This document shows positions 1 through 22,820 of a DNA stretch of 22,820 nucleotides, one piece after another. The position numbers and the translations under genes were made by a program. Under the pieces are notes generated by a model. The model worked only from the letters and a program-made list of their open reading frames with translations, made no database searches and was not told the DNA's origin. The number at the start of each line of letters is the position of its first letter. The stretch's first letter is position 1. The stretch comes from a virus: IMG/VR virus record IMGVR_UViG_3300036985_007539, positions 1-22,820 of that record; one strand, 5' to 3'.

Positions 1-651
1 ATCATGGACATTCTTAAGACTTATTTTCTTTATATCCTCTTCACGTCCAGGAAACATTGCTTCTAATTGTTTCTTAGACTTCCACATTCTACGCCATAAA
101 TAGTTACAGTCAGATAAATCTTTCTTGCAAAAATAGGGATCGATAAGGAAAGAACTATATCCTACGTTATCTACACAAATATCACCATTAACACTATCTG
201 TACGATAATCCATCCATACACTAAGAAGATTCATACCTGTAGTTATTGCACCTTCAAATGCTTCGCTTATTGTTTCAAGGATATTATCTCTTTTACATAT
301 CCAAAATAGAATTTTACTTATTTGATCAGCGGTATATTCATCACTTCCTTCTATAGGAACGGCTATCATACTTTTACGATTTTTTCGTTGATAACCTGTT
401 ACCATATCTACGATACGTCTAATTCTATTGAAACTAAAATTCTTTCTACTGTTACGTGTACCTATATCGATGCCATAGACATCACTCCATAGTTTTTGAT
501 CACCTGCTTTGAAACGCATGTCTATATCAGCTTCAGTCCAATAAGACTGATTGATAGTCAAAGCTTGAGCATAGCTTTGCTCCATCATTCTTTTGATATT
601 TTGATCATTTCCATCAACATAGTAATTTTCGTCCATTACAGGATAGCTCAT
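1..651 (-). CDS. Portal protein, N-terminal part (runs off the left edge)
   Basis: An open frame of 217 codons starts at ATG 651 and reaches the window edge without a stop. The start follows TAGGTAAAA, a usable ribosome site, 6 bases after the stop of the upstream fibre gene. The product looks like the portal of podoviruses of the P22 type, the ring at the capsid vertex through which DNA is packaged and ejected. Supporting stretches are RRIVDMVTGYQRKNRK at residues 78-93 and DPYFCKKDLSDCNYLWRR at 171-188. P22-type portals usually carry a 'basic arginine-rich start, then DPxxxxxDxxD.xY' pattern at these places. Most of the protein, with the crown and barrel regions, lies outside the window. 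It is the last visible gene of the leftward fibre operon, an unusual position because portals normally sit with scaffold and capsid genes, which here run in the opposite direction. Confidence 0.85.
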   Translation of the reverse strand, partial: MSYPVMDENYYVDGNDQNIKRMMEQSYAQALTINQSYWTEADIDMRFKAGDQKLWSDVYGIDIGTRNSRKNFSFNRIRRIVDMVTGYQRKNRKSMIAVPIEGSDEYTADQISKILFWICKRDNILETISEAFEGAITTGMNLLSVWMDYRTDSVNGDICVDNVGYSSFLIDPYFCKKDLSDCNYLWRRMWKSKKQLEAMFPGREEDIKKISLKNVHD

Positions 652-657
652 TTTTAC

Positions 658-1392
658 CTATGCATTTGTTAAAGTTTTATGATAATCATAAGTAGATACA
701 ACATTATATGTTTTTGCTGTTTCTCCAGCAAATTTTATAACTATTTTTTGATTAGGAATATCAGCAGAAACTGTTACTACAGGATTGCCAGCACTATCAT
801 ATAATTGATTAATGATAGAATTTATAACTGTGATATTACCTCCAACAGCTCTTCTAGCTCCAGTGAAAACAGTAGACATATAAGCTTCATTATAAGTACT
901 TCTAAAAGCATTTATACGGGCTTCTATAGAGATCATTTCACCTTCAGACAATGGTATAGATATGATATTTGTTGGAGAATTATTAACCGTTTGTATAGCG
1001 CTCTGAGCAAACTCACGTTTAGATCCAGTATAACCAACTACTGGAGTAAATTGTAATGTTAAAGTATTCAAAGTGCCGATAGTTTCCAGTCCATTTTCTG
1101 CAGTTATTGTTATAACACCATTTATATCAGGATTAGCAAAACCAGAATCAGCGGCAATACTATCAAATATATTACTAGCTTGGCCAAATTGAATCCATGT
1201 AGCGATAGGACCATTTTTATTTACCAATAGATAAGCTGTATCATTAACTTCATTTATCCAAATGTCACCAATATCAAAACTTCGATGATCTTGGCTTGTT
1301 GGTGATCTAGGAATAATATGAAGATTAGGTGGATTACTTTCTTTAATACCTAAATAACCTAAAGGTTGTCCGACTGGTAAACTTTTGCCCAC
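658..1392 (-). CDS. Tail fibre / tip protein with C-terminal domain B
   Basis: A 244-residue virion protein, probably a tail fibre or receptor-binding tip. The start is GTG at 1392: AGGTGG lies 5 bases upstream and overlaps the stop of the preceding gene, and no nearby in-frame ATG competes. Residues 35-75 hold a short 'IGDIWINE...TAYLLV...ATWIQFG' module that is common in phage fibres and other surface proteins. Residues 120-244 (domain B, starting at GYTGS) align with the C-terminal half of the neighbouring 269-residue protein. Shared landmarks include GYTGS, a central EAR, ARRA followed by a glycine, DSAGNPV versus DSAGSPT, and a closing VVSxYxYH. The shared C-terminus and divergent N-terminus suggest duplication followed by module exchange. 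There is no recognisable enzyme motif. The exact receptor and place in the tail are not known. Confidence 0.75.
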   Translation of the reverse strand: MGKSLPVGQPLGYLGIKESNPPNLHIIPRSPTSQDHRSFDIGDIWINEVNDTAYLLVNKNGPIATWIQFGQASNIFDSIAADSGFANPDINGVITITAENGLETIGTLNTLTLQFTPVVGYTGSKREFAQSAIQTVNNSPTNIISIPLSEGEMISIEARINAFRSTYNEAYMSTVFTGARRAVGGNITVINSIINQLYDSAGNPVVTVSADIPNQKIVIKFAGETAKTYNVVSTYDYHKTLTNA

Positions 1393-1400
1393 ATTCCCAC

Positions 1401-2210
1401 CTATGTGTTAGTTTTTATAAAATGATATCTATAACTTACAACCCAGTTCCATGTTTCAGTACCAACACCAGTTACTAATAATCTTACATCATTAGAACTG
1501 ACATCAGCATCTACTGTTGGAGATCCTGCAGAATCTTCTTGTACATCAATAATAGGATCAGAAACTTCTAAAGCGCCTGCGGCAGCTCTTCTTGCAGTAT
1601 ATCTAAGGAAACCTCCACATGAAGCAGCATAATCACTTTTAAAGCCACCAAAACGAGCTTCAACAACAACCATTGTACTGGTAGCTAAAGTAATAGCAGC
1701 TATCTGTGTTGGTGTAGTATTAGTAGTTTGTACACCAGCTTGTTTAAGGATATCATTAGAACCAGTATATCCTGAAGCTGTTCCTTTAATATCTAATGAT
1801 AATATTCCACTAATATTATTGCTATCATCAATAAGAACACCACTGTCTTTGATCAGCTTACCAGTTGTAGAATTATATCTAACAATAGCATTGGCTGTAG
1901 CACCTGCAGGACCAACTACATCACCAACTTTATTCTCTATCCACGATAGTTGAGCAGCACCGTCTGTTTTTAAGATATAACCAGCAGTACCGTCAGCTTG
2001 TGGCCACTTTAAGCCATCTAAAACGAGATCACCAGCGGCTTTAGGAGTAAGCGTGATACCAACATTAGCATCAGTTCCAGCACCTGATATTGTAATACCA
2101 TTCATAGACAATTGTGCAGTAGCTACATTCGTTGTAATTGTAGTAGCGTTAGCTGTGTTAGCTATAAAATCTTTTGTTAAACTTATCGAACCTTTAAAAC
2201 TGTAGGGCAT
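1401..2210 (-). CDS. Tail fibre protein: one 124-residue repeat plus domain B
   Basis: A 269-residue fibre protein. Residues 22-145 are a single copy of the 124-residue repeat that occurs four times in the next gene upstream. It includes ITISGAG, LDGLKWPQADGTAGY, GDVVGPAGATANA and IDDSNN. Residues 146-269 form domain B, shared with the 244-residue protein downstream and beginning GYTGS. The repeat resembles the glycine/threonine-rich repeats of beta-structured phage fibres, so the likely layout is a trimeric shaft segment followed by a distal tip. The ATG at 2210 has AGGTT about 6 bases upstream, just after a strongly folded intergenic sequence. That fold separates this gene from the long repeat fibre and might set the ratio of the two products. 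Confidence 0.8.
   Translation of the reverse strand: MPYSFKGSISLTKDFIANTANATTITTNVATAQLSMNGITISGAGTDANVGITLTPKAAGDLVLDGLKWPQADGTAGYILKTDGAAQLSWIENKVGDVVGPAGATANAIVRYNSTTGKLIKDSGVLIDDSNNISGILSLDIKGTASGYTGSNDILKQAGVQTTNTTPTQIAAITLATSTMVVVEARFGGFKSDYAASCGGFLRYTARRAAAGALEVSDPIIDVQEDSAGSPTVDADVSSNDVRLLVTGVGTETWNWVVSYRYHFIKTNT
1776..2147 (-). repeat. Fifth copy of the 372-base fibre repeat
   Basis: This unit codes for residues 22-145 of the 269-residue fibre protein and matches the four-unit array of the neighbouring gene in length, phase and landmarks (TTITTNVATAQLS at the start, IDDSNN near the end). It links the two fibre genes as a potential recombination site. Confidence 0.8.
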
Positions 2211-2214
2211 ATTA

Positions 2215-2279
2215 AACCTATATGGTTAAAAACCATATCCATCCTATGATAAACATATATCATAGGAGGGATATAGGTT
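2215..2279 (-). repeat. Nested inverted repeats between two fibre genes
   Basis: The 79-base gap between the fibre genes is nearly all inverted repeat. ATATCC-a-TCCTATGAT (2235-2250) pairs with ATCATAGGA-g-GGATAT (2259-2274), giving 15 pairs with one mismatch and an 8-base loop. A second hairpin, TATGGTT/AACCATA (2221-2227 with 2231-2237), overlaps it. An outer pair, AACCTATAT/ATATAGGTT (2215-2223 with 2271-2279), encloses both. No long T-run follows on the leftward strand, so a simple intrinsic terminator is unlikely. A processing site, an attenuator, or a control on translation of the downstream fibre gene is possible. Confidence 0.8.
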
Positions 2280-2289
2280 AAAGTAATAA

Positions 2290-3930
2290 TTAGAATATAT
2301 AAATACCAGCGCGGAAACGTCCATCAGGAGTTTCAGGAACGCGTAAAGCTACATCACCATTAGCTTTTGTAATTCTAATGCGATCAACGCTAGCAACATC
2401 TAAATTAGTTCCATCATATTCCATAACAGTAACCATTGGATCAACTTTACCATGAGTTGCAGCAGTGATTGTACGAGTATAGAAACCACCACTAGCAGCT
2501 CCCCAAGCAGTATTTACGTCAGCATCAAATATTGGGTATTTAGCTATTGAAGGTTGAGCAACCCAAGAAAGTTGAGCAGCACCATCTGTTTTAAGAACAT
2601 AACCAGCAGTACCGTCAGCCTGTGGCCACTTTAGACCATCTAAAGTTAAATCACCAGCGGCTTTAGGAGTAAGAGTGATACCAACGTTAGCATCAGTTCC
2701 AGCACCTGATATTGTAATACCACTTGCAGATAATTGTGCAGCAGCAACGTTTGTTGTAATAGTGGTAGCGTTAGCAGTAGTAGCTGTAATAGCTGCAACA
2801 CCAGTAACGTTATTACTGTCATCGATGATAACGCTTGATCCTTGGATAATTTTACCAGTAGTTAGGTCAAATCTAGCAATAGCATTATCAGTAGCTGAAG
2901 CAGGACCAACTACATCACCTGATGTTTGAGCTACCCAAGAAAGTTGAGCAGAACCATTGGTCTTTAATACATAACCAGCAGTACCATCAGCTTGTGGCCA
3001 TTTTAAGCCATCTAACGTTAAATCACCATTAGCTTTAGGTGTTAAAGTTATACCAACATTTGGATCAGTGCCAGCACCTGATATTGTGATGCCACTAACA
3101 GACAACTGTGCAGCAGCAACGTTTGTTGTAATAGTTGTTCCATTTAAGGTTGTACCAGTTAATGCTACGACACCTGTGACGTTATTGCTATCATCTACGA
3201 TAATTCCAGAATTCTGTATTAATTTACCAGTAGCTAAGTCATATCTTGCTAAAGCATTATCGGTAGAAGAAGCAGGACCAACTACATCACCAGTGGCAGT
3301 AGAAACCCAAGAAAGTTGACCAGCACCATCTGTTTTAAGGACATAACCAGCAGTACCATCAGCTTGTGGCCATTTAAGACCATCTAAAGTTAAGTCACCA
3401 GCGCCTTTAGGCGTAAGTGTGATACCAACAGCAGCATTAGAACCAGCACCTGATATTGTGATGCCGCTAACAGACAACTGTGCAGTAGCAACGTTTGTTG
3501 TAATAGTGGTAGCATTAGCTGTAGTAGCTGTAATAGCTGCAACACCAGTAACATTATTACTGTCATCAATAACAACACTACTATCTTTAATCAACTTGCC
3601 AGTTGTAGAATTATATCTAGGAATAGCATTAGCTGTAGCACCTGCAGGTCCTACAACATCACCTAATGTTTGAGCTACCCAAGAAAGTTGTGCAGCACCG
3701 TCTGTTTTTAAGATATAACCAGCAGTACCGTCAGCTTGTGGCCACTTAAGACCATCTAAAGTTAAGTCACCGGCGCCTTTAGGCGTAAGTGTAATGCCAA
3801 CATCAGTATTAGAACCAGCACCTGATATTGTGATGCCGCTCAAAGATAGTTGTGCAGCAGCAACGTTTGTAGTAATTGTAGTAGCATTAAAACCGCCTAA
3901 CACTACTAACGAGCCATAAAGATTTGCCAT
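2290..3930 (-). CDS. Long tail fibre with four 124-residue repeats and tip domain A
   Basis: A 546-residue fibre protein. After 15 leader residues come three full repeats of 124 residues (16-139, 140-263, 264-387) and a fourth truncated to 72 residues (388-459). Each opens with TTITTNVA.AQLS and contains LDGLKWPQADGTAGY and GDVVGPA; the full copies also end with a DDSNNVTG segment. Residues 460-546 are tip domain A, with GGFYTRTITAATHG, MEYDGTNLD and a closing PDGRFRAGIYIF. The same domain closes the 139-residue protein encoded just upstream. These repeats are typical of low-complexity beta shafts in phage fibres, and the tip probably contacts the host surface. The gene begins 10 bases after the upstream gene's stop, with GGAGGC before the ATG. 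The unit number could change by recombination between the nearly identical DNA copies. Confidence 0.85.
   Translation of the reverse strand: MANLYGSLVVLGGFNATTITTNVAAAQLSLSGITISGAGSNTDVGITLTPKGAGDLTLDGLKWPQADGTAGYILKTDGAAQLSWVAQTLGDVVGPAGATANAIPRYNSTTGKLIKDSSVVIDDSNNVTGVAAITATTANATTITTNVATAQLSVSGITISGAGSNAAVGITLTPKGAGDLTLDGLKWPQADGTAGYVLKTDGAGQLSWVSTATGDVVGPASSTDNALARYDLATGKLIQNSGIIVDDSNNVTGVVALTGTTLNGTTITTNVAAAQLSVSGITISGAGTDPNVGITLTPKANGDLTLDGLKWPQADGTAGYVLKTNGSAQLSWVAQTSGDVVGPASATDNAIARFDLTTGKIIQGSSVIIDDSNNVTGVAAITATTANATTITTNVAAAQLSASGITISGAGTDANVGITLTPKAAGDLTLDGLKWPQADGTAGYVLKTDGAAQLSWVAQPSIAKYPIFDADVNTAWGAASGGFYTRTITAATHGKVDPMVTVMEYDGTNLDVASVDRIRITKANGDVALRVPETPDGRFRAGIYIF
2554..3885 (-). 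repeat. 372-base direct repeat array (3 full + 1 partial units)
   Basis: The DNA units are 3885-3514, 3513-3142, 3141-2770 and the truncated 2769-2554, exactly 372 bases apart and therefore always in frame. A further full unit lies in the next gene at 2147-1776. Segments such as the code for LDGLKWPQADGTAGY are almost identical in all copies, which makes unequal recombination likely. Confidence 0.85.
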
Positions 3931-3940
3931 AAAGCCTCCT

Positions 3941-4360
3941 TTAGGATATGACTATTTTTGCTCTAAATCTCAAATCCGGAGAATCCGGAACTTTTATTGT
4001 AATGTCACCATTAGATGCCATTTCTAAGACATCAACAATAATTTGCGTCGATTTTACACCATCGTATTCATATGTATCTGTCGATGGTAATAATCCTCTT
4101 CCATGTGTTGCAGCAGTAATTATTCTGTAGTAATAACCACCTAAAGGTCCAGACCATCCAATTGTCGAATTAGTATCAGTTTCACTATATTTTGATAAGC
4201 CACCAACTACTTGAGATAATTTTAGTGGAGTAATAATTGTAGTATCATTAACACCCGCTAAAGCTTCAGCTGCTGTAGCTAATCTAGCCTTACCTTTTAC
4301 TAATTCTGTTGCATCTGGAACACTACCTGCAGTACTATTTATAATACCAGCATTTGACAT
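3941..4360 (-). CDS. Short fibre / collar-type protein with tip domain A
   Basis: A 139-residue protein. Residues 16-52 read as a phage fibre repeat (the ATxxxKGxxxLATxxExxAGxxxxxxxTPxxL pattern): ATELVKGKARLATAAEALAG followed by TIITPLKLSQ. Residues 57-139 are tip domain A, shared with the C-terminus of the 546-residue fibre: GGYYYRIITAATHG, a YEYDG and a closing PDLRFRAKIVIS. The ATG at 4360 follows an AAGGAGT-like site. The gene sits between the first gene of the operon and the long fibre gene. It may be a short fibre, an attachment piece or a competing tip that uses the same fold as the long fibre. No enzymatic signature is seen. Confidence 0.75.
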   Translation of the reverse strand: MSNAGIINSTAGSVPDATELVKGKARLATAAEALAGVNDTTIITPLKLSQVVGGLSKYSETDTNSTIGWSGPLGGYYYRIITAATHGRGLLPSTDTYEYDGVKSTQIIVDVLEMASNGDITIKVPDSPDLRFRAKIVIS

Positions 4361-4369
4361 ATGTACTCC

Positions 4370-4717
4370 TTATGTTCCAGACTCTACAGTAAGTATTTCT
4401 ACAGAAATCCATCCAGAAGCAGGTGCAGTACCTGTTATATGTTTACAATAAAATTTAGTTCCAACTTCTATAAATTGAGGAGCATTTCCTAAAGCTTTAT
4501 TAGCAGTTACATCCCATACTTGGAATGAATTTGCAGGAAGTTTCAATTTATTTGTTGAACCATCGTCAGAAAAGTATATCGTTTCGTTAGTATTATTTGT
4601 AATTTTAACGATACGAGCACATTTAGTTGTCGCATTTCCAACAGCAGTATAACTATCGGTAATGACGCCGAATGCTAATTCACGGATAACATCCCAGCCA
4701 GCTCTTTTGCCATACAT
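4370..4717 (-). CDS. Small virion-associated protein, first gene of the fibre operon
   Basis: A 115-residue protein beginning MYGKRAGWDVIRELAFG at ATG 4717, with AAGGG 6 bases upstream. The open frame extends further back to a TTG at 4789 and an ATG at 4762. However, the TTG lies within the -35 hexamer and that ATG overlaps the -10 of a very good leftward promoter (4761-4789), so neither can be on the transcript. The protein is rich in beta-prone stretches (YFSDDGSTNKLKLPANSF, SGWISVEIL) and resembles small virion accessory proteins next to fibre genes. I do not recognise a named family. It starts the operon that continues into the fibre and portal genes. Confidence 0.65.
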   Translation of the reverse strand: MYGKRAGWDVIRELAFGVITDSYTAVGNATTKCARIVKITNNTNETIYFSDDGSTNKLKLPANSFQVWDVTANKALGNAPQFIEVGTKFYCKHITGTAPASGWISVEILTVESGT

Positions 4718-4760
4718 AAAAAACCCTTTTTTATGCACACTAAAGTTTGTATCTGTCTTC

Positions 4761-4789
4761 ATATTAAATTTTTTAACGATAGGTAACAA
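4761..4789 (-). promoter_or_regulatory. Sigma70-type promoter for the leftward fibre-portal operon
   Basis: On the minus strand TTGTTA (4789-4784) is separated by exactly 17 bases from TAATAT (4766-4761). Transcription should start near 4754, upstream of the ATG at 4717. This decides the start of the first gene. Confidence 0.7.
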
Positions 4790-4796
4790 GAATTAT

Positions 4797-4824
4797 TTTA
4801 CATAAAAGAATAAACATGTAGAAT
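4797..4824 (+). promoter_or_regulatory. Candidate rightward promoter
   Basis: TTTACA (4797-4802), a 16-base spacer and TAGAAT (4819-4824) precede the 82-codon ORF starting at 4860. It is back to back with the leftward promoter, so both may share control. Confidence 0.45.
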
Positions 4825-4859
4825 ATGATTTTATCAACAAAAAAAACTTATGGTGTTTT

Positions 4860-5108
4860 ATGAAATTTTCAATAGATGAATGTTTAAGACAAAAAATTGG
4901 TATTTGTATAGATGATGCAAAGATATTCTATTTTGATTTTCCTAGTACTTCTAAGATAGAAGAATTACATGAAGTTGTTTCTGAACTAAAAATAGCCTTG
5001 TGGAATACTATGGAAGCAGAAAAGAAGGCTAATGAGGAAAATAAAATAGTAGAAATGCCAACAGAAGAAATTTGTTGTGAAATATGTTCTGAAGAAGAAC
5101 CAAAATAA
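4860..5108 (+). CDS. Small acidic protein of unknown function
   Basis: An 82-residue ORF starting at ATG 4860 with GGTG 4 bases upstream. It is strongly acidic toward the C-terminus, has a predicted helical middle (EELHEVVSELKIALW, residues 35-49), and ends with a cysteine cluster CCEICSEEE at residues 72-80. It is a single-gene unit: a promoter lies upstream and a strong terminator closes 63 bases downstream. The cysteines could bind metal, but the number and spacing fit no family I know. Because it is isolated and divergent from the fibre operon, a regulatory or host-takeover role is possible but only inferred. Confidence 0.6.
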   Translation: MKFSIDECLRQKIGICIDDAKIFYFDFPSTSKIEELHEVVSELKIALWNTMEAEKKANEENKIVEMPTEEICCEICSEEEPK

Positions 5109-5133
5109 TATTCTCCGTTTAAACTTTGATATT

Positions 5134-5171
5134 ACCATCATGATTTCCTAAAGGTCATGATGGTTTTTTTT
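5134..5171 (+). terminator. Intrinsic terminator after the 82-codon gene
   Basis: ACCATCATGA (5134-5143) pairs perfectly with TCATGATGGT (5155-5164) around an 11-base loop, followed by eight T residues (5164-5171). Confidence 0.9.
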
Positions 5172-5247
5172 GTTTCCAACACTTTCTAAGATAAGATAAA
5201 TATATATATATATCTTCTTCTTAATACACTGTGGATTTGATCATAAG

Positions 5248-5376
5248 TGGTCATTTTGGGAAGTAAGTGCATGTTTATAATTTGTTTACAAGCAGTTCAG
5301 TACATACTTGCACTTAAACGATCTACTGCAAGTATAGAATTCCATACTTGCAGTTTACATATTTGATATATGACCA
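5248..5376. promoter_or_regulatory. Cluster of palindromic half-sites upstream of the capsid operon
   Basis: A 30-base palindrome (5325-5354) has arms ACTGCAAGTAT and ATACTTGCAGT around an EcoRI-like GAATTC centre, with one mismatched pair. Related half-sites occur at 5303-5315 (CATACTTGCACTT) and 5265-5273 (AAGTGCATG). The whole is bracketed by the inverted heptamers TGGTCAT (5248-5254) and ATGACCA (5370-5376). No ORF of useful length lies here. A regulator-binding region is the simplest reading. Confidence 0.6.
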
Positions 5377-6287: not shown

Positions 6288-7241
6288 ATGGCAATTACGA
6301 CCAGTAGTGTGTTGCCGGCAGCCGTACAACAAAGTTTATCTTTAAAGTTACTGTCGGTTCCAACACCTTACATGATTCATAGCATACCAGCTATGAAAAA
6401 AAACATGCCTGCTAATGGTGGTAGAACTTTGCGTATGAGACGTTACAACGCTCTACATACAGCAACAGTACCACTCGGAAATTCAGGCGTTACCCCACCA
6501 GCTCAACAATTAACAGCTGTTGATATTGATGCTACGATTGATTTTTATGGTTCTTATGTATTAATAAACGAACAAGTAACATTACAATCTGAAGATCCTG
6601 TTCTTAATTCAGCAGCACAAAGACTTGGCGTTTCTTTAAGACAAACAGAAGACGAATTAGTACGTAACATGCTTGCTTCTACAGCAGCTTTCATTAACTG
6701 TGTTAATGGAACAAATGGCGACAATCCAACAGAATTAACACGTGGTGATATTGACGAAGTTATTCGTTCATTAGCAAATTCTAATGCATATACAATATCT
6801 GATAGTATTGAAGGTACAAATCAATTTGGTACTTCTCCTGTTCGTGATAGCTACCTTGCTTTAGCTAGCACACAGTTAATTGGAGATTTGGAAAATGTAA
6901 CAGGATTCATTTCTAAAGTACAATATCCTGGTAATGGTAATGATGCTTTACGTCCTGAATGGGGTAGTGTATCAAATATCCGTTTCTTACTATCTTCAAT
7001 GGGTTCTGTAGCTGCTAATGCTTCTTTAAATGATGCCAATATATATAATATTTTTTGTGTAGGTATGGAAGCATATGCTGTTATTGAACAAGATGGATAT
7101 AGTGCTCAATTCATTCTAAGACCACCCATTTATGATGGTCCTTTAGCATTGAATTCTAGTGCAGGTTATAAATTTGCACAAGTTCCAAGAATCACGAATG
7201 ATGCTTGGGTTATTAATCTAAGAACTACATTAAGCGTATAA
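6288..7241 (+). CDS. Major capsid protein, N4-gp56 family
   Basis: A 317-residue protein that forms the icosahedral shell. It fits the N4-gp56 family of HK97-fold capsid proteins. Indications are the N-terminal MRRYNALHTAT (residues 50-60), the central YVLINEQVTLQSEDPVLN (90-107), the charged helix RQTEDELVRNMLAS (118-131), a VRDSYLALAS-like helix and a C-terminal FILRPPIYDGPL. Length is within the normal range for the family. The ATG at 6288 follows CTGGAGT about 9 bases upstream. The gene follows the scaffold and precedes an FCCH-domain virion protein, as in many short-tailed phages with this capsid type. Capsids of this family assemble around a portal like the one encoded at the left edge. 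Confidence 0.92.
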   Translation: MAITTSSVLPAAVQQSLSLKLLSVPTPYMIHSIPAMKKNMPANGGRTLRMRRYNALHTATVPLGNSGVTPPAQQLTAVDIDATIDFYGSYVLINEQVTLQSEDPVLNSAAQRLGVSLRQTEDELVRNMLASTAAFINCVNGTNGDNPTELTRGDIDEVIRSLANSNAYTISDSIEGTNQFGTSPVRDSYLALASTQLIGDLENVTGFISKVQYPGNGNDALRPEWGSVSNIRFLLSSMGSVAANASLNDANIYNIFCVGMEAYAVIEQDGYSAQFILRPPIYDGPLALNSSAGYKFAQVPRITNDAWVINLRTTLSV

Positions 7242-10240: not shown

Positions 10241-12442
10241 ATGTATCAACCTTTTTATATAGAAGCATTCAAAACAGGTCTAGAACTTGATAAACCATCT
10301 TTTAAAATAGAAGATGATGCTTTTGAAATTTTAGAAGATGCTTATGTTTGGAGAGAAAGAGTTATTAAAAAAAAAGGTTATGAAAAAAAATGCAGACTTA
10401 CAAGAACACCAACAGTAAGTTCTCTAGGAAATACCACGGGTAGTACTAGCAGTGGTAATATAAAGACATTCTTATCACTAGAAACGAACATGGAACTAGC
10501 TCAGAATACAATAGTGATACATATTGCTGCTCCAAATGCTGAGATATTTACTGAACCATCAACAGCAGATGGTACATTAGTTGGTAGTGGTGGTGGCACT
10601 GGAACGATAAATTATGTTACAGGAGCTTATACATTAGTATCTGGAAGTGGATGGGGTGCTGGGCATGCTATAACTATTAATTTTAGTTATTATCCTGGAT
10701 TACCTTGTGTAGGTTTAGGTGTAAGAGAATTAGCTTCAATCAATGCTGAACAGTCATATGCTTTTGATACGAAATATTTCTATTTATGGAGTAATACTGT
10801 TCAAAATTTCATGGAAGCTGGTGTTGGAACAACATGGTTAGGTAGTGATTCTGATTTTTTTCATGGAGCAAATTATTACAGTTCTAGTGTAGGTGGAGAC
10901 ATATTTTTTGTAACAAATTTTAATAAAGGACTAACACCAGATCCAATACGATATTATAATTCAACATTTACGACATTTAATCCTGATGTTGATGGCATTG
11001 GAAATAAGTTGCAGCAAGCATTGTTATTAATTCCTTATAAAGGCCGTTTAATAGCTTTAAACGTATATGAAGGTTCATCATTAGCTACTGCTACACAGAT
11101 TGGTGGAAGAGCTCGTTGGTCATGGAATGGTGATGCTTTAGTAGCTGGTTCTTGGCGCAGTGATATTGCTGGTAAGGGTGGTTATATTGATGCTCCAACG
11201 AGTGAATATATAATTTCTGCTGGATTTATAAAAGATACCTTAATAGTTGGTTTTGAAAGATCAGTATTTCGTTTAAGATATACTGCAAATGAGATATTAC
11301 CATTTGTATGGGAACGTATAAGTAATGAATATGGTATCGAATCGACAGATTCTGTAATAAAACTTGATCAGAATCAAATAGCCATAGCAGCAAATGGTAT
11401 CATAATGTCTGATGGTTTAGGTGTTAAACGTATAGACCAAAAAATCCCAGACTTAGCATTTCAAATCAATAATGATAATGAAGGAAACAAAAGAGTCCAT
11501 GGGATACGTGACGATGTTAATAAATTGATTTATTGGACATATACTGATGCATCTCTTGGAAGTTCTTTTCCAAATAGAATTTTAGTATTTAACTTTGAGA
11601 ACTATTCATGGGCAATTTTTAAAGATACTCTTACATGTTTCAGTTATTTACAAAGATCTAGTGATTACACATGGTTAGATTATTTTAATCATACATGGGA
11701 AAATTGTAATTTTCCTTGGAATTCTTTCAAGCAACAATCATTAGTTCAAACGGTTATTGCAGGTAATCAACAAGGTTACATATTTCAAATGCAAGTAAAA
11801 AATTATAATGATTCAAGCTTAGCTATAAAATCTATAACTCCTGGTTTATCTGTCATCTTGACAATCGTTAATCATAATTTTAATAATTCTGATTTCATTT
11901 ATGTAACAGGAATTATTGGTACATGCAATGTATTGAATGATAAAACATATAGAATTAGTGTAATTGATGTTAACAATATAAGAATAAGTAGTATTTTTGG
12001 ATTACCTCCCACAGTACCAATAGGAAGCACATATTTAGGTGGTGGTGAAGTTTCTACAGTTCATGATTTTAAAGTACGTACAAAGTCATTTAATCTAGCA
12101 CAAATGGGTAAAGGACTAGAATTTGGTTACCTAGATTTTCTTTTAGACAGAACAGAAAATGGTGAATTTAATGTTGATTTATATTTAGACAATAATGATA
12201 GCTATAAAATAAATGTTAATGATTCATTTTTCAACACAACCGTGTCTTCAACAATATCTGATCAAGATTTACCCGCAGAGAAGAAAGTCATGCATAGATT
12301 TTTTTGTCATGCAAACACTCATTTTGTTCAATTTGAATTTAATTTAACACAGAACCAAAAATCCGATAGAAGTATATCATCTTCAGATATACAAATTCAT
12401 TCTTTAACATTATGGATGGATAAATCAGGAAGGATGGTATGA
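10241..12442 (+). CDS. Large tail protein, nozzle / DNA-stabilisation type
   Basis: A 733-residue protein, the largest in the window. The N-terminal AFEILEDAYVWRERVIKKKG (residues 28-47) and the long beta-rich middle with GFERSVFRLRY, RISNEYGIESTDS, AIAANGIIMSDG and GNKRVHGIRDDVNKLIYWTY match the pattern of the tail nozzle or tube-B-type proteins of short-tailed phages (analogous to P22 gp10 or T7 gp12), which close the neck and hold the packaged DNA. Two extra modules are inserted. Residues about 72-150 share the INYVTG/IDYVTG beta module with the connector protein. Residues about 524-590 look like an FCCH domain (LTIVNHNFNNSDFIYVTG). The gene overlaps the next one by ATGA. The analogy is by architecture and position; sequence identity to known nozzles cannot be checked here. 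Confidence 0.65.
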   Translation: MYQPFYIEAFKTGLELDKPSFKIEDDAFEILEDAYVWRERVIKKKGYEKKCRLTRTPTVSSLGNTTGSTSSGNIKTFLSLETNMELAQNTIVIHIAAPNAEIFTEPSTADGTLVGSGGGTGTINYVTGAYTLVSGSGWGAGHAITINFSYYPGLPCVGLGVRELASINAEQSYAFDTKYFYLWSNTVQNFMEAGVGTTWLGSDSDFFHGANYYSSSVGGDIFFVTNFNKGLTPDPIRYYNSTFTTFNPDVDGIGNKLQQALLLIPYKGRLIALNVYEGSSLATATQIGGRARWSWNGDALVAGSWRSDIAGKGGYIDAPTSEYIISAGFIKDTLIVGFERSVFRLRYTANEILPFVWERISNEYGIESTDSVIKLDQNQIAIAANGIIMSDGLGVKRIDQKIPDLAFQINNDNEGNKRVHGIRDDVNKLIYWTYTDASLGSSFPNRILVFNFENYSWAIFKDTLTCFSYLQRSSDYTWLDYFNHTWENCNFPWNSFKQQSLVQTVIAGNQQGYIFQMQVKNYNDSSLAIKSITPGLSVILTIVNHNFNNSDFIYVTGIIGTCNVLNDKTYRISVIDVNNIRISSIFGLPPTVPIGSTYLGGGEVSTVHDFKVRTKSFNLAQMGKGLEFGYLDFLLDRTENGEFNVDLYLDNNDSYKINVNDSFFNTTVSSTISDQDLPAEKKVMHRFFCHANTHFVQFEFNLTQNQKSDRSISSSDIQIHSLTLWMDKSGRMV

Positions 12443-12933
12443 GTTATCAACCTGGAAATTCTATTAATTCTTTTTTGCCGACGGACATAATACTTCCTGA
12501 TGATCAAAAAGAATTAAATACAATGCTTGATGAGTTATTCAGAAAGATAATAGATGCTGTTAACAATAAAGATATTGGTCAATACAACACTGTAGAATTA
12601 GTCAATGGTCAGAAATTTTTTACTGTTGGAGATCCACAAAAATTTAAAGATGTATATCGTAAAGTAATAAATTTTGGATCATTGCCAAATAATACCACAA
12701 AGAATGTTGCACACGGAATATCCGTAACATCATCAACATTATTTACAAGAATATATGCAACAGCGACAAATACCACTGGATTAGTCAGTATACCTATTCC
12801 ATATTCAGACCCAACTGCGATCGCTAATTGTATAAAAATACAAATTGATGCTACAAATGTAGGTATAACTACATTGATTAATTATTCCAGTTTCAACACT
12901 TGTTATGTGGTTTTGGAGTATTTACAATATTGA
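12439..12933 (+). CDS. Small tail protein
   Basis: A 164-residue protein whose ATG overlaps the TGA of the nozzle gene (ATGA), indicating translational coupling. The N-terminal third is helical and acidic (ILPDDQKELNTMLDELFRKI, residues 18-37). The remainder is beta-rich, with VYRKVINFGSLPN followed by TTKNVAHGISV (residues about 72-96), a short pattern seen in tail-tip and fibre-attachment proteins of podoviruses. It probably joins the distal end of the tail or holds a fibre. The role is inferred from gene order and this motif; no enzyme motif is present. Confidence 0.6.
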   Translation: MSYQPGNSINSFLPTDIILPDDQKELNTMLDELFRKIIDAVNNKDIGQYNTVELVNGQKFFTVGDPQKFKDVYRKVINFGSLPNNTTKNVAHGISVTSSTLFTRIYATATNTTGLVSIPIPYSDPTAIANCIKIQIDATNVGITTLINYSSFNTCYVVLEYLQY

Positions 12934-12947
12934 TTAGGAGATAATAT

Positions 12948-13505
12948 ATGCCTAAGTTAGGTGAATTTTTCTTTGGTAAAAGCAGTAGTACAGAACAAAT
13001 GCCGTTATTTAGTCCAGAACAAATGGCGTTTCTTAATAAAATTCTTGGTGCTGTTGAACCTGGAACAATGTCTGGAATAGATTATTTAACAAAAATGGTT
13101 TCAGGAGATCAGGGATCTATGAATGCATTTACAGATCCATATATGAGACAATTTCAAGAGCAAACAATACCATCTATATCTGAAAGATTTGCTAATTTAG
13201 ATGCTCAGAAATCAAGTGCTTTTGGACAATCATTAAGTCAAGCTGGAGCTGGATTACAAGAACAATTAGCAGCATTACGTGCAAATCTTAAAAATCAAGC
13301 TTTATCACAATTACAAGGATATGCAGGTATGGGATTGGGACAACAATATCAAAATATTGTTAAACCAGGAACATCTGGAATGTTTGCTGGAATGGCTGCA
13401 GGAGCTGGTTCTGCAATTGGTTCAGCTGCTGGTTCTGCAATGATGGGCGGTATGGGTTTTGGTGGTGCTGGCGGTGCTGGACTTAGTTCATTAGCTGTTC
13501 TTTAA
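12948..13505 (+). CDS. DNA-ejection (internal virion) protein, small
   Basis: A 185-residue protein starting at ATG 12948 after AGGAG. It has a helical middle (residues about 62-130) with TDPYMRQFQEQTIPSISERF, SSAFGQSLSQAGAGLQEQLA and repeated Ala/Gln. The C-terminal stretch, about residues 145-180, is almost only Gly, Ala, Ser and Met, as expected for a membrane-inserting segment. This is the usual build of the smallest ejection protein of P22-like or related podoviruses, which leaves the head with the DNA and helps form a channel through the cell envelope. Two larger proteins of the same kind follow directly, giving the common set of three ejection proteins. Confidence 0.7.
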   Translation: MPKLGEFFFGKSSSTEQMPLFSPEQMAFLNKILGAVEPGTMSGIDYLTKMVSGDQGSMNAFTDPYMRQFQEQTIPSISERFANLDAQKSSAFGQSLSQAGAGLQEQLAALRANLKNQALSQLQGYAGMGLGQQYQNIVKPGTSGMFAGMAAGAGSAIGSAAGSAMMGGMGFGGAGGAGLSSLAVL

Positions 13506-13526
13506 TTATCTTTAAAAGGAGTTTAT

Positions 13527-14765
13527 ATGGTTTTAGGAGCATTAGTAGTACCACAAAATGATATTGGAGCACAAATTGGTCAATCTTTTGGAGCTGGTCT
13601 TGGTCAAGGTTTATCTAGACAATTTGATAGTTTTAGAGATACTAAAAAATTAAAAAATCTTTCTTTAAAATGGAATAAAGAAACTCCAAAAGACCAAATA
13701 ATAACGGAAATTATGACTTCTGATGCTAGTCCTGAAGCAAAGCAAGCATATTTATCTAATCTTACTTCTTTATGGCAAATAGAACAACGTGGGGCTGAAA
13801 CAGAATTAAAAAAACAAAAATTAGGTCAAATTCAATCATTATTAGGTATTTTTGGAGAAGATCAACAACCACAAGCTCAAAATAATAATCCATTAGAAGC
13901 TTTAACAGAAAAAAGAGGATCTTATAACGCAGCACAAAATGCTATCGATCAAGTACAAGATCAACCACAACAATCTCAAATGACACAAATGCAACAACCA
14001 ATGCAACAACAACAAGAACAAGTAAAACAACCATTAAAAAGCTTCAATCAAAAGCAAATATTAGCAGCAACGATGTTAGATCCTAATATTGGGCGTGCTA
14101 TGATGGAACAGAATAAATTCAAACAGAAAGAAGATCTTCAAAGTAGAAAAGATATTTCAAGTTCATATAAAGAAACAAAAGATTACAGAAATACTCTTAA
14201 TACTTCTTACAAGGCTGCTTTAGAAGATAAACAAGTTTATAAACGCATGATGGAATTAAATGACAAAAACTTAGCTAGTCCTTTTCAGGCTGTGTTATCA
14301 GAACATTTTAATATTCCTATAAGTATATTGTCTAATCCTCAATCTGAAGAATTTGAAAAACTTGTAGCAACAATGACTAGAAACGTTAAGCAATATTATG
14401 GCGCTAGAATTACAAACTTAGATCTTGAGATGTTTTTAAAGGGTATTCCAACATTGAAGAACTCAAAAGAAGGTCGTCAACTTATTATAGAAACACTTGA
14501 AAAATTGAACAAACCTAAAGAATTGGAATACAAAGCTTATCAAGATATAAAAAAAGAATATAAAGACAAACCACTTCCATTTGATTTACAAGAACGTGTG
14601 TTAGAAAAAATAGAACCTGAACTTGATAATTTGTCTAAAGAAATTAAATCATCTATAGGCAAAGATTCTTCTAAAATTTTAGTCATATCTCCAGAAGGAA
14701 AAAAGTACAAACTTCCTAAAGAACATATAGACGAAGCTTTAAAGGCTGGTTGGAGGACAGAATAA
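13527..14765 (+). CDS. DNA-ejection (internal virion) protein, glutamine-rich
   Basis: A 412-residue protein starting at ATG 13527 after AAAGGAG. The N-terminus (DIGAQIGQSFGAGLGQGLSR, residues 12-31) is Gly-rich and amphipathic. A low-complexity Gln/Met region spans about residues 117-175, followed by charged helices up to residue 390. The final residues, LVISPEGKKYKLPKEHIDEA and onward to GWRTE, form a small C-terminal motif that often ends phage internal virion proteins. The protein is predicted to be carried inside the capsid and released ahead of the DNA. It sits between the small and the 435-residue ejection proteins; the next start codon overlaps its stop (TAATG). There is no lysozyme or transglycosylase motif. 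Confidence 0.65.
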   Translation: MVLGALVVPQNDIGAQIGQSFGAGLGQGLSRQFDSFRDTKKLKNLSLKWNKETPKDQIITEIMTSDASPEAKQAYLSNLTSLWQIEQRGAETELKKQKLGQIQSLLGIFGEDQQPQAQNNNPLEALTEKRGSYNAAQNAIDQVQDQPQQSQMTQMQQPMQQQQEQVKQPLKSFNQKQILAATMLDPNIGRAMMEQNKFKQKEDLQSRKDISSSYKETKDYRNTLNTSYKAALEDKQVYKRMMELNDKNLASPFQAVLSEHFNIPISILSNPQSEEFEKLVATMTRNVKQYYGARITNLDLEMFLKGIPTLKNSKEGRQLIIETLEKLNKPKELEYKAYQDIKKEYKDKPLPFDLQERVLEKIEPELDNLSKEIKSSIGKDSSKILVISPEGKKYKLPKEHIDEALKAGWRTE

Positions 14766-16736: not shown

Positions 16737-17627
16737 TTAAGAAAGTGTATATGAAAAACGATATGATATTGCATCAGATTTTCTATATTTATCAAGATCT
16801 ATAAAATTTTCTTCGCAAGCTTTTCTATAGTCTATTCTTGAGTTTGTAATTTTAGATATTTTTACAACATCTCCAATGACAACTGTTTTATCTCCTGACT
16901 TTTCTATCAATTCTTTTCGCAATGATTCTTTTTGTACTTCCAATTCTTTGATTTTATCTTCGATAAACCTCAATTGAATTGATAATGAAACACATTCTTC
17001 ATCATTTTCATAAGATAAATCGCTAGAAGAGGATTGAGGAGCAACATCAGCTTCTACATAATTATTCCAGAAGTCACATAATCTTGGAATCAAGATACTT
17101 TCTATGAAGTCATCATCTTTTTCGACTAACATCATAGATATTTTATTATCTAAATAAGCAGCAATATAACCAGTTAAAGCTCCAGAGACTAGATATTGAT
17201 GTTGAATTTGCACCCAATATTCTGGATATTCTTTCTTTAATTCCAGTGAGCCTTGAAAATCGATAACATTTAAAAGCTTATATGTACGAGGACATTTCAA
17301 TTCTACGAATTCCGTACCATCTTCATTCATTCCGTCGAAAGAAGCCTGTATGAATGAATAATAATCATGTTTACCACATATGGATGAGAATTTACTTTCT
17401 ATATTAATATTGAAAGCCATCAAAGCTTCTTCTTCTAGGTCTATACCTCTTTGCATGTCTGCATTAATGTCATTTTTAAAAGCTCTACCTGTTTTTTCTT
17501 CCCACAACTTTAACAACGTGTTATATCTTGACATACCAACGATGACAGCGCTATCACTTGCACCAATGCCAGTTAAACGCCATTCTAGCCATTTGTTTGT
17601 TCTTTGAAGCATATCCACTACCTTCAT
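16737..17627 (-). CDS. YqaJ / lambda-Exo-type recombination exonuclease
   Basis: A 296-residue nuclease of the YqaJ viral recombinase family (PD-(D/E)XK fold). These enzymes degrade one strand of double-stranded DNA from its end to give 3' overhangs. Key motifs are GIGASD (residues 20-25), RGIDLEEEA (60-68), ASFDGM with the catalytic Asp 98, ELK (109-111) with Glu and Lys of the active site, and QIQHQYLVSG (140-149). The last 80 residues add a coiled-coil helix (IEDKIKELEVQKESLRKELI, residues 221-240), seen in many family members. The ATG at 17627 follows AGGAG by 8 bases and is 3 bases from the stop of the ERF gene. Together they form a two-gene phage homologous recombination module, comparable to lambda exo and bet. 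Confidence 0.9.
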   Translation of the reverse strand: MKVVDMLQRTNKWLEWRLTGIGASDSAVIVGMSRYNTLLKLWEEKTGRAFKNDINADMQRGIDLEEEALMAFNINIESKFSSICGKHDYYSFIQASFDGMNEDGTEFVELKCPRTYKLLNVIDFQGSLELKKEYPEYWVQIQHQYLVSGALTGYIAAYLDNKISMMLVEKDDDFIESILIPRLCDFWNNYVEADVAPQSSSSDLSYENDEECVSLSIQLRFIEDKIKELEVQKESLRKELIEKSGDKTVVIGDVVKISKITNSRIDYRKACEENFIDLDKYRKSDAISYRFSYTLS

Positions 17628-17630
17628 CGA

Positions 17631-18209
17631 TTAAACTCCTCTTTTGTCGGTTATTAAGCGATTTACGGTATTTATAACATTATCGTAGTTATCTAATGGA
17701 ATATTTTTCAAAGCAACGAAAGCTTTTAACATACGTTGACGAATATCTTCATGCCCATTTATCAAAGTTTCAATAGTGTGTAGTTGTTCTGCAGAAATAT
17801 AATCTACAATGGCATTTTTAGCTGTGTTACCATCATCATCTTCTTCTTCAGCGACTATACCCAATGCAGCAGATAATGAATATCTCTTAGCATAAGATGT
17901 AGCAGAACCTAAGGAATGAGCGTCTTTCTTTTGTAAGACAACTTCAAAGGGACCGTATTCTATCCATTGACCCGATGAATGTATGACTCTAGTATAAACA
18001 GCTACACCATCTTCTGTAGTAATAGCATCTTGTAAAACACATATTTCATTTTTATATAGAGATTCACGTATAGCTTCCCATATGGAGGCAATATTAGCAT
18101 ATTTACTTTTGAAATATGGATTGGAGCTATCTTTGATAGCTGGTTTCATTTGACCTTGAGCATTAGCTAACGCTTTTGCTAATTCATTGATTGATTCTGA
18201 TGTTTTCAT
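17631..18209 (-). CDS. erf: ERF-family single-strand annealing protein
   Basis: A 192-residue recombinase of the ERF family, known from P22, which coats single strands and anneals complementary ones. Diagnostic stretches are NPYFKSKYANIASIWEAIR (residues 30-48) and GSATSYAKRYSLSAALGIV (101-119) followed by the acidic EEEDDDGN (121-128). The start ATG at 18209 has AGGAG 7 bases upstream. It is the first gene of the leftward early operon; its promoter is at 18264-18292, and the exonuclease gene follows. The partnership suggests recombination-dependent replication or circularisation of the incoming genome. Confidence 0.9.
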   Translation of the reverse strand: MKTSESINELAKALANAQGQMKPAIKDSSNPYFKSKYANIASIWEAIRESLYKNEICVLQDAITTEDGVAVYTRVIHSSGQWIEYGPFEVVLQKKDAHSLGSATSYAKRYSLSAALGIVAEEEDDDGNTAKNAIVDYISAEQLHTIETLINGHEDIRQRMLKAFVALKNIPLDNYDNVINTVNRLITDKRGV

Positions 18210-21424: not shown

Positions 21425-21589
21425 ATGTCCGACGAAGAATTTAATAAAATTTGTAATTATACAAAATTAGAATTAGTTAATTACATAGAACATCTTACGA
21501 AAGATATGAATATGAAAAATGAAATTATAAAATCTCTTAAATGGAAATTATATAGTTATGATGTTTCATCAGAAGAAGATTATAATTAA
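21425..21589 (+). CDS. 54-residue hypothetical protein
   Basis: A short ORF beginning MSDEEFNKICNYTKLELVNY at ATG 21425, with AGGA about 6 bases upstream. It starts 1 base after the stop of the zinc-protein gene and overlaps the RusA start by 32 bases. The product is acidic and helical, with an LVNYIEHLTKDM segment that could form a coiled coil. Such small helical ORFs are common before RusA genes. The tight spacing and ribosome site support a real gene; no function can be assigned. Confidence 0.6.
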   Translation: MSDEEFNKICNYTKLELVNYIEHLTKDMNMKNEIIKSLKWKLYSYDVSSEEDYN

Positions 21590-21989
21590 ATCTCCTCCTC
21601 AAGCACAAGGTAGACCTCGCTTTTGTACAAGAGGTGCTCATGCATTTGCTTTCGATCCTCATAAAGACAAGAAGAACTGGACAAAAATACAGTTAGCAGA
21701 ACAATGTGAGGAGTGCTTAAAATGCCCACTAATACTTTGTGTAACGTTCTATCTTCCTATACCTAAATCTGCATCTAAAAAGAAAAAAGTACTGATGATT
21801 TCGAATGAAATAAAACATACGAAAAAACCAGATGTAGACAATCTTCTTAAGTTTATCCTAGATGCAATGAATAATATCGTATTCGTCGATGATAGCCAGA
21901 TCTGGAATATTACCACTATCAAGAAGTACTCAGAAGAATCACGTACAGAAATAGATATTCATTGGTTTAAACCAACACTGATAAGTTAA
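21558..21989 (+). CDS. rusA: RusA-type Holliday junction resolvase
   Basis: A 143-residue resolvase that cuts four-way junctions formed in recombination and late replication. RusA hallmarks are IIIKSPPQAQGRPR (residues 8-21), the acidic motif PDVDNLLKFILDAMNN (91-106) with aspartates 92 and 94, and VFVDDSQI (108-115) with a third catalytic aspartate. A lysine cluster (72-77) fits DNA binding. The ATG at 21558 lies within the preceding small gene; a second ATG follows immediately. With the ERF and YqaJ proteins it completes a recombination set. It is the last gene of the rightward early operon and its 3' end overlaps the convergent 248-residue ORF by 23 bases. Confidence 0.9.
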   Translation: MMFHQKKIIIKSPPQAQGRPRFCTRGAHAFAFDPHKDKKNWTKIQLAEQCEECLKCPLILCVTFYLPIPKSASKKKKVLMISNEIKHTKKPDVDNLLKFILDAMNNIVFVDDSQIWNITTIKKYSEESRTEIDIHWFKPTLIS

Positions 21990-22713
21990 AGAACCTTCTT
22001 GTTTGTGACATGTGAGAAACATGAGTATTTTCATTAACATTAAAATATAACTTCGCCGCACTCCCAAGTATCGATATTGAAGAGATAATATAGCGTATTT
22101 TTATCGGAAATATCGCGATATCCAAGAATATAAATACTGTCGTACTTAAACTACACATTACTTTTATAATTTTGTTTACAACCATTTCTAATGTTTCTTC
22201 GTCTAAAGTGGTATGTAGAGCATTTCTAGGATAATTTGTGATGGATGTATATAATATTTTTACATCTTTTGCTAATGTAATCATATTTCTTACTAAAGAG
22301 AAAATACTGCTTATGCGATCTATTTTCATGATTTTAGCTCTGAGCATTAATACATTCGACCATTTACAAATCAGATGTATTCCTTTCTTGGAAAAAAATT
22401 CAGCAACCTTAAAAATATTAACTAGCAAAGTTAATACATTCGATGGGAAATTAATCCAAGTGCTGCACATGTCATTTATTGGTTTTAGAAAGTTACAGAA
22501 TAATATAGCACTATCACTGCAGTAATCTTTTAACATTTTACAATGTCCTCTCAAAGATTCGAAACCGCGATATTCTGCCCATAATTCACCTGTCATGAAA
22601 ATGGTAGATGCTAATTTTAAAGTGTCTCTTTTTATGTTTAAATTATTGAATGTGGATTCAATACTTCTTGAATAAGATAGTGTTGTGTCGTAGAAATAAT
22701 TTATAATAGTCAT
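21967..22713 (-). CDS. Hypothetical membrane-type protein, convergent to rusA
   Basis: A 248-residue ORF starting at ATG 22713, with AGGGA about 7 bases upstream. The N-terminal two thirds are helical with many hydrophobic residues and several cysteines. The clearest membrane region is a pair of hydrophobic stretches at residues 186-203 and 208-222 separated by a short basic turn (PIKIR). No family is recognised. The paired hydrophobic hairpin recalls inclusion-membrane proteins of intracellular chlamydiae, but the charged turn and lack of database support make this weak. It runs against the early operon and may be an accessory (moron) gene or a cargo gene from the host. A possible TATAAT -10 lies about 27 bases upstream without a good -35. 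Confidence 0.5.
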   Translation of the reverse strand: MTIINYFYDTTLSYSRSIESTFNNLNIKRDTLKLASTIFMTGELWAEYRGFESLRGHCKMLKDYCSDSAILFCNFLKPINDMCSTWINFPSNVLTLLVNIFKVAEFFSKKGIHLICKWSNVLMLRAKIMKIDRISSIFSLVRNMITLAKDVKILYTSITNYPRNALHTTLDEETLEMVVNKIIKVMCSLSTTVFIFLDIAIFPIKIRYIISSISILGSAAKLYFNVNENTHVSHMSQTRRFFNLSVLV

Positions 22714-22820
22714 ATCTCGTTCCCTGTTAGGTTACGAATATATTATAGATTATTTTTTAATAACTATCCCCAAAATAAAACAAAATATTTTTTGAAAAAG
22801 AACATAGTAGATCGTTCCAG

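Follow-up and report, generated by a model that had tools for sequence, protein, structure and literature searches.

A fibre-shaft module shared by three paralogous genes of one phage genome has probably evolved in concert and as a mosaic. Repeat units that have clearly diverged from one another nevertheless hold identical tracts in common and give conflicting trees along their length, and orthologous tips are joined to non-orthologous shafts. Genes A, B and C appear to be paralogous tail-fibre genes of a single ~34-kb podovirus-like phage, in which each fibre would be composed of an N-terminal attachment segment, a run of shaft units and its own C-terminal tip.

The phage is known from one metagenome-assembled genome in two contigs. 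The first is IMG/VR virus contig IMGVR_UViG_3300036985_007539, analysed over its full 22,820 bases (33% G+C; hereafter the window), and the second, L004 (11,294 bases), overlaps each end of the window at 100% identity, the overlap being exactly 127 nt in either case. Because of these two end overlaps we read the contigs as one genome, which when joined on paper forms a closed circle of 33,860 bases. Exact 127-nt overlaps are, we assume, the pattern left by two contigs of one assembly graph with a word length of 127, and the ends concerned (window 1-127 and 22694-22820, and both ends of L004) very likely come from a single circular assembly that was split at two nodes of the graph; such a split suggests that the sample contained strain variants. 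The collections searched, viral_contigs included, yielded no further genome of this phage and no near-identical one; the nearest relative is contig 3300018080_000412 (loci L005 and L041).

Fibre genes and the layout of their units

The five fibre-like genes of the window (4370-4789, 3941-4360, A, B and 658-1392) are all on the minus strand. They are flanked by a fragment of a P22-type portal gene (1-651) and by a capsid block that faces outward on the plus strand (from 5518 onward). Their setting is that of virion structure, with the portal gene adjoining, capsid and tail-type genes in the window, and the terminase in L004. The portal gene is completed in L004, whose plus strand also carries another cluster of fibre genes. 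The portal gene and its adjoining small genes (window 1-651, L004 9692-11293) point the other way from capsid and terminase, which sets this phage apart from 39 of 39 relatives. The features are as follows (window positions unless L004 is named).

1-651, minus strand: N-terminal part of the portal protein, whose gene extends into L004; strand opposite that of the capsid gene
658-1392, minus strand: fibre gene with a tip-B-type end and no unit; orthologue at L005 14295-15032
1401-2210, minus strand: fibre gene B (269 aa), with N-terminus MPYSFKGS followed by a single unit and tip B
1401-1781, minus strand: tip B, ~124 aa, modelled confidently as a beta-sandwich; shares 78% identity with the tip of L005 gene F
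1773-2144, minus strand: unit B1; matches A1 and C2 exactly over 56 nt, and C3 over 26 codons
2290-3930, minus strand: fibre gene A (546 aa), running from N-terminus MANLYGSLVVLG through three 124-aa units (A1-A3) and core A4 to tip A
2290-2553, minus strand: tip A, ~88 aa; 74% identical to the tip of L005 gene D and 41% to the tip of the 3941-4360 gene
2554-2766, minus strand: unit A4, truncated to its core (~71 aa), after which tip A begins
2767-3138, minus strand: unit A3
3139-3510, minus strand: unit A2
3511-3882, minus strand: unit A1, a mosaic with segments closest to A2, C2, C3/B1 and C1
3678-3783, minus strand: 106-nt tract in A1, identical to gene C unit 2 (L004 6610-6715, plus strand)
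3941-4360, minus strand: fibre gene with a tip-A-type end and no unit; collar-fibre-like N-terminus
L004 6088-7683, plus strand: fibre gene C, three units, in the second fibre cluster
16737-17627, minus strand: YqaJ/RecE-type exonuclease (Pfam PF09588, E 5.1e-22)
17631-18209, minus strand: ERF single-strand annealing protein (Pfam PF04404, E 1.5e-26)
21558-21989, plus strand: RusA Holliday-junction resolvase (Pfam PF05866, E 1.3e-28)

The fibre identification draws on the neighbouring genes and on weak profile matches, and is accordingly tentative: gene A gave a partial match to PHROG 28473 (tail fiber, E 1.1e-5) and the 3941-4360 gene a match to PHROG 910 (tail collar fiber, E 1e-9), while gene B matched none of the PHROG tail-fibre families by sequence. 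Pfam matches of gene A (thiamin pyrophosphokinase, FAM186A and others) were short and repeat-driven and were dropped. A sequence search of solved structures with the unit, tip A and tip B returned no useful relative. The AlphaFold model of gene A, at a mean pLDDT of 45, was unusable, and the shaft was modelled at pLDDT of about 30-50; in the model of gene B only the tip, a beta-sandwich, is confident, and its predicted fold weakly resembles domains of tailspikes and tail fibres at a low whole-chain TM. The units are presumed to form the shaft.

A 372-nt repeat period, which scores 1623 in Tandem Repeats Finder, runs through gene A in register and in frame; ungapped matches of 300 nt between units reach 69-86%, far above chance. 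The initial annotation had described five in-phase 372-base units in two genes, extending from 1776 to 3885. Frame and spacing are as described, and the span fits (A1 starts at 3882 and B1 ends near 1773), but gene A holds three complete units and a ~71-aa core and gene B a single unit, whose last ~15 codons diverge. Gene C has three units, and the L005 genes D, E and F have two, one and one. L005 genes E (11722-13482) and F (13491-14285) adjoin, have the same start and carry tips that are 66% identical, the picture of a duplicated fibre gene. Among 50 whole records (L004 and capsid relatives), no full units were found beyond the L004 and L005 phages.

Divergence of the units and traces of exchange

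The units are not near-identical, as had first been thought. Among the complete ones (A1, A2, A3 and B1), DNA identity is 71.5-79.0% and protein identity 70-82%, with dS of 0.6-0.9; the conserved cores are 77-86% identical in DNA, with NG86 dS of 0.38-0.83. For scale, the capsid gene has a dS of 1.2 against that of the nearest relative phage. As the values for the units lie below this figure, their duplication, or their last full homogenisation, probably postdates the split from the nearest relative and yet is not recent, as far as can be judged from synonymous change. Too high a synonymous divergence had been named at the outset as one observation that would speak against recent exchange of units, and at dS ~0.4-0.9 it rules out recent duplication or homogenisation of whole units. 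The suggestion that unit number changes holds over evolutionary time, given the differing counts among paralogues (three and a core in A, one in B, three in C) and the two units of the L005 orthologue of A. A recent change in length is not supported, because of the same dS values and because adjacent units of gene A match exactly over no more than 35 nt.

Against this background of divergence, two tracts stand out. A1 and C2 are identical over 106 nt, including 36 consecutive codons for the same residue, although elsewhere in the pair only 38% of same-residue codons agree; the analytic bound for such a tract is 2.6e-9. B1 and C3 share 26 consecutive identical same-residue codons (bound 1.9e-5). 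These are the only tracts that survive correction for the 28 unit pairs tested. No exact repeat in the joined genome is longer than the 106-nt tract, whose copies are inverted and 8.13 kb apart; the nearest loci beyond these have no more than 29 nt in common with the units. The clearest traces of exchange are therefore between genes and not between tandem neighbours, since the neighbouring units of gene A share so little exact sequence.

It could be argued that the units were duplicated once and simply diverged, the identical runs reflecting codon bias and conservation of the core protein, and the core motif LDGLKWPQADGTAGY is indeed conserved in all unit copies and largely also in L005. We consider this very unlikely. 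When synonymous codons were re-drawn from the genes' own codon usage (200 trials), the longest run never exceeded 38 nt for A1-C2 or 44 nt overall, as compared with the 106 nt observed, and stretches of identical protein in other unit pairs carry many synonymous differences.

Unit A1 is itself composite, its nearest partner changing along its length from A2 (87%) to C2 (92%), C3 (92%) and C1 (100%). Phylogenies of the two parts of the unit disagree: the 3' segment gives the clade A1+B1+C3 a support of 100/99, whereas the 5' core rejects it (AU p 0.02), and the pairing A1+C2 is rejected in the 3' segment (p 0.0003). The power of such tree tests is limited, the segments being short; the free tree of the 5' core does not itself have A1 and C2 as a pair. 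The alignment of units that had been proposed as a check for gene conversion therefore does reveal exchange, in the form of identical tracts within otherwise divergent copies (A1-C2, 36 codons and 106 nt; B1-C3, 26 codons) and 5' and 3' trees that conflict along the unit. There is a residual chance that the 106-nt tract is an artefact of a chimeric or consensus assembly, although at this length it falls short of the apparent final assembly word of 127. The shared tracts could also derive from an unsampled related phage instead of from the same genome; we infer that exchange took place within this lineage.

Shafts, tips and possible switching

Comparison with the nearest relative separates the history of the shafts from that of the parts at either end. 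Gene D of L005 pairs with A, having the LYGSLVVLG start and a tip 74% identical, and gene F pairs with B, having the FKGS start and a tip 78% identical; within the window genome, tips of the same type are only 38-41% identical to tips A and B. The shaft cores behave in the opposite way, being 82-89% identical to one another among A, B and C (the divergent first unit C1 aside), with 83-89% for A-B and A-C, and 58-63% identical between A and D and between B and F. Paralogues are thus more alike than orthologues, and this is so in the shaft part only, from which it follows that shafts evolve together within a genome and that ends and tips do not. Searches of viral_contigs with tips A and B matched almost only the L005 phage and L004.

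HNH endonuclease genes of the nearest relative (L005 8649-9134; L041 8513-9076) lie beside the fibre cluster and between portal and scaffold genes; it is possible that they are agents of local exchange.

The initial annotation had envisaged a host-range device requiring no reverse transcriptase (none was found among the larger proteins scanned), in which recombination between units would alter shaft length, or fuse A with B and so swap tips; as an active device, it would do so frequently within the phage population. Certain features are those one would want of such a device: the 372-nt units are in frame and directly oriented in two adjacent genes, phage recombinases are tolerant of divergence, and unit number varies among paralogues and orthologues. 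As an account of present activity it is nonetheless highly improbable. The divergence of the units (dS 0.4-0.9, with at most 35 nt of exact match between neighbours in A) argues against it, and the supposed exchange of tips between A and B finds no support in their N-termini and tips, which are still paired as in L005 (A as in D, B as in F). Moreover, recombination between direct repeats of A and B deletes the intervening sequence; tip A and the start of B would be lost, leaving one fused gene and no exchange of tips.

Inversion offers a route to new combinations that avoids this loss. Recombination between oppositely oriented shaft repeats, the best pair being A1 and a C unit through the 106-nt tract, would flip an 8.1-kb block containing B, the 658-1392 fibre gene, the portal gene and small genes, generating reciprocal A-start/C-tip and C-start/A-tip genes. 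The two fibre clusters are oppositely oriented around the portal block, as this would require, their longest shared tract is the longest exact repeat of the genome, and it is only in this phage that the portal gene is opposite to the capsid gene, the two being on the same strand in 39/39 relatives that have both. Yet the start and tip of gene A are combined as in its L005 orthologue, so that the gene is not now in a swapped state, and no molecule of the other orientation is known. The fibre clusters, moreover, have changed place as well as direction, and the rearrangement was therefore not one simple flip. For these reasons an active switch is a minority reading, and inversion by shaft repeats seems unlikely. 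The more specific proposal, that the phage's own ERF system flips the portal block and so swaps the A and C tips without loss and without a site-specific invertase, is quite unlikely; no such invertase was recognised among the proteins scanned (part of the small ORFs lay outside the scan).

Recombination genes, comparable systems and possible hosts

Concerted mosaic evolution of the shaft module, the reading we prefer, would have begun with the multiplication of a common phage fibre-shaft module within the lineage, followed by divergence. Occasional homologous recombination would then have copied patches of unit DNA between genes and between both clusters, with the result that shafts stay mutually similar and unit number can shift over long times, and tips and ends stay with their genes. 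The ERF and YqaJ genes noted at the outset are confirmed by Pfam, and a RusA resolvase can be added to them. This ERF/YqaJ/RusA system is most likely the agent, because Erf-type annealases tolerate ~20% divergence. During phage growth, the Erf protein of phage D3 and its exonuclease outperform the RecA pathway ~100-fold in recombining DNA that is 78% identical (PMC3945230), which makes exchange between units that are 15-28% apart plausible. The earlier suggestion that ERF/YqaJ drive recombination between the units is therefore a reasonable one, in that the genes are present and Erf/exonuclease pairs act on DNA of this divergence, although the part played by these enzymes would be presumptive. 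Other Rad52-like phage annealases (Redbeta and RecT, as well as D3 Erf; PMC3945230) likewise exchange patches at ~20% divergence, and the present phage has its own ERF annealase, accompanied by an exonuclease and a resolvase; the published cases involve phage-prophage pairs or engineered substrates, whereas the substrates here would be paralogous shafts of one genome.

Repeats in fibre genes have precedents that differ in several respects. The antireceptors of Streptococcus thermophilus phages have collagen-like repeats between their domains (mentioned in PMC5601072), which, as here, separate conserved from variable fibre domains, but those repeats are short and collagenous and the units here are of 124 residues and non-collagenous. 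Inversion is found at tailocin fibre loci (PMC13195805), where, as in the present genome, inverted homologous fibre sequences around a block could swap tips.

At those loci, as with the invertible fibre segments of phages P1 and Mu (flipped by Cin and Gin, respectively), a site-specific invertase acts at short sites. Their inverted homologous sequences resemble the arrangement here, but no invertase gene was recognised in the annotated parts of this genome. The gp37 fibre of phage T4, in work by Tetart and colleagues from 1996 that PMC9603124 cites, reportedly changed host range through duplication of a small adhesin domain. Both T4 gp37 and the present genes contain repeats that recombination can multiply, but the T4 repeat is in the adhesin tip and its phenotype was tested, whereas the units here are old, divergent and in the presumed shaft.

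The capsid gene (window 6288-7241) has its closest relatives in cellular genomes among Chlamydiota bins (L147, L148 and L152-L160). A capsid scan of 84,980 species returned only a Simkaniaceae bin (75% aa) and a Parachlamydiaceae bin, and 8 of 234 Chlamydiota genomes contain a capsid relative; there are 353 such relatives in viral_contigs. Five of the contigs in chlamydial bins are of phage size (35-41 kb) and the Simkaniaceae contig closes as a circle, so the association is evidence from binning and not from integration. The large capsid clade may infect chlamydiae; a literature search for tailed phages of chlamydiae gave nothing specific. In the Parachlamydiaceae bin (L148 3821-5898) the capsid gene is interrupted by an insert, probably an intron, that carries a LAGLIDADG endonuclease gene on the opposite strand (4438-5337), and the capsid genes of several other chlamydial bins (G142 contig C388, G087, G194 and G174) match in separated pieces.

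These fibre genes belong to a known kind, that of modular phage fibres evolving by relaxed homologous recombination, and they provide a clear case, in a phage with a full ERF/YqaJ/RusA set, in which the shafts of receptor-binding fibres evolve in concert across genes and the parts that confer specificity do not. Should the 106-nt inverted repeat be recombinogenic, it would offer a simple and testable way of switching fibres that needs no dedicated invertase. Infection of chlamydiae by the clade, at which the capsid relatives hint, would make these fibres candidates for proteins that bind chlamydiae.
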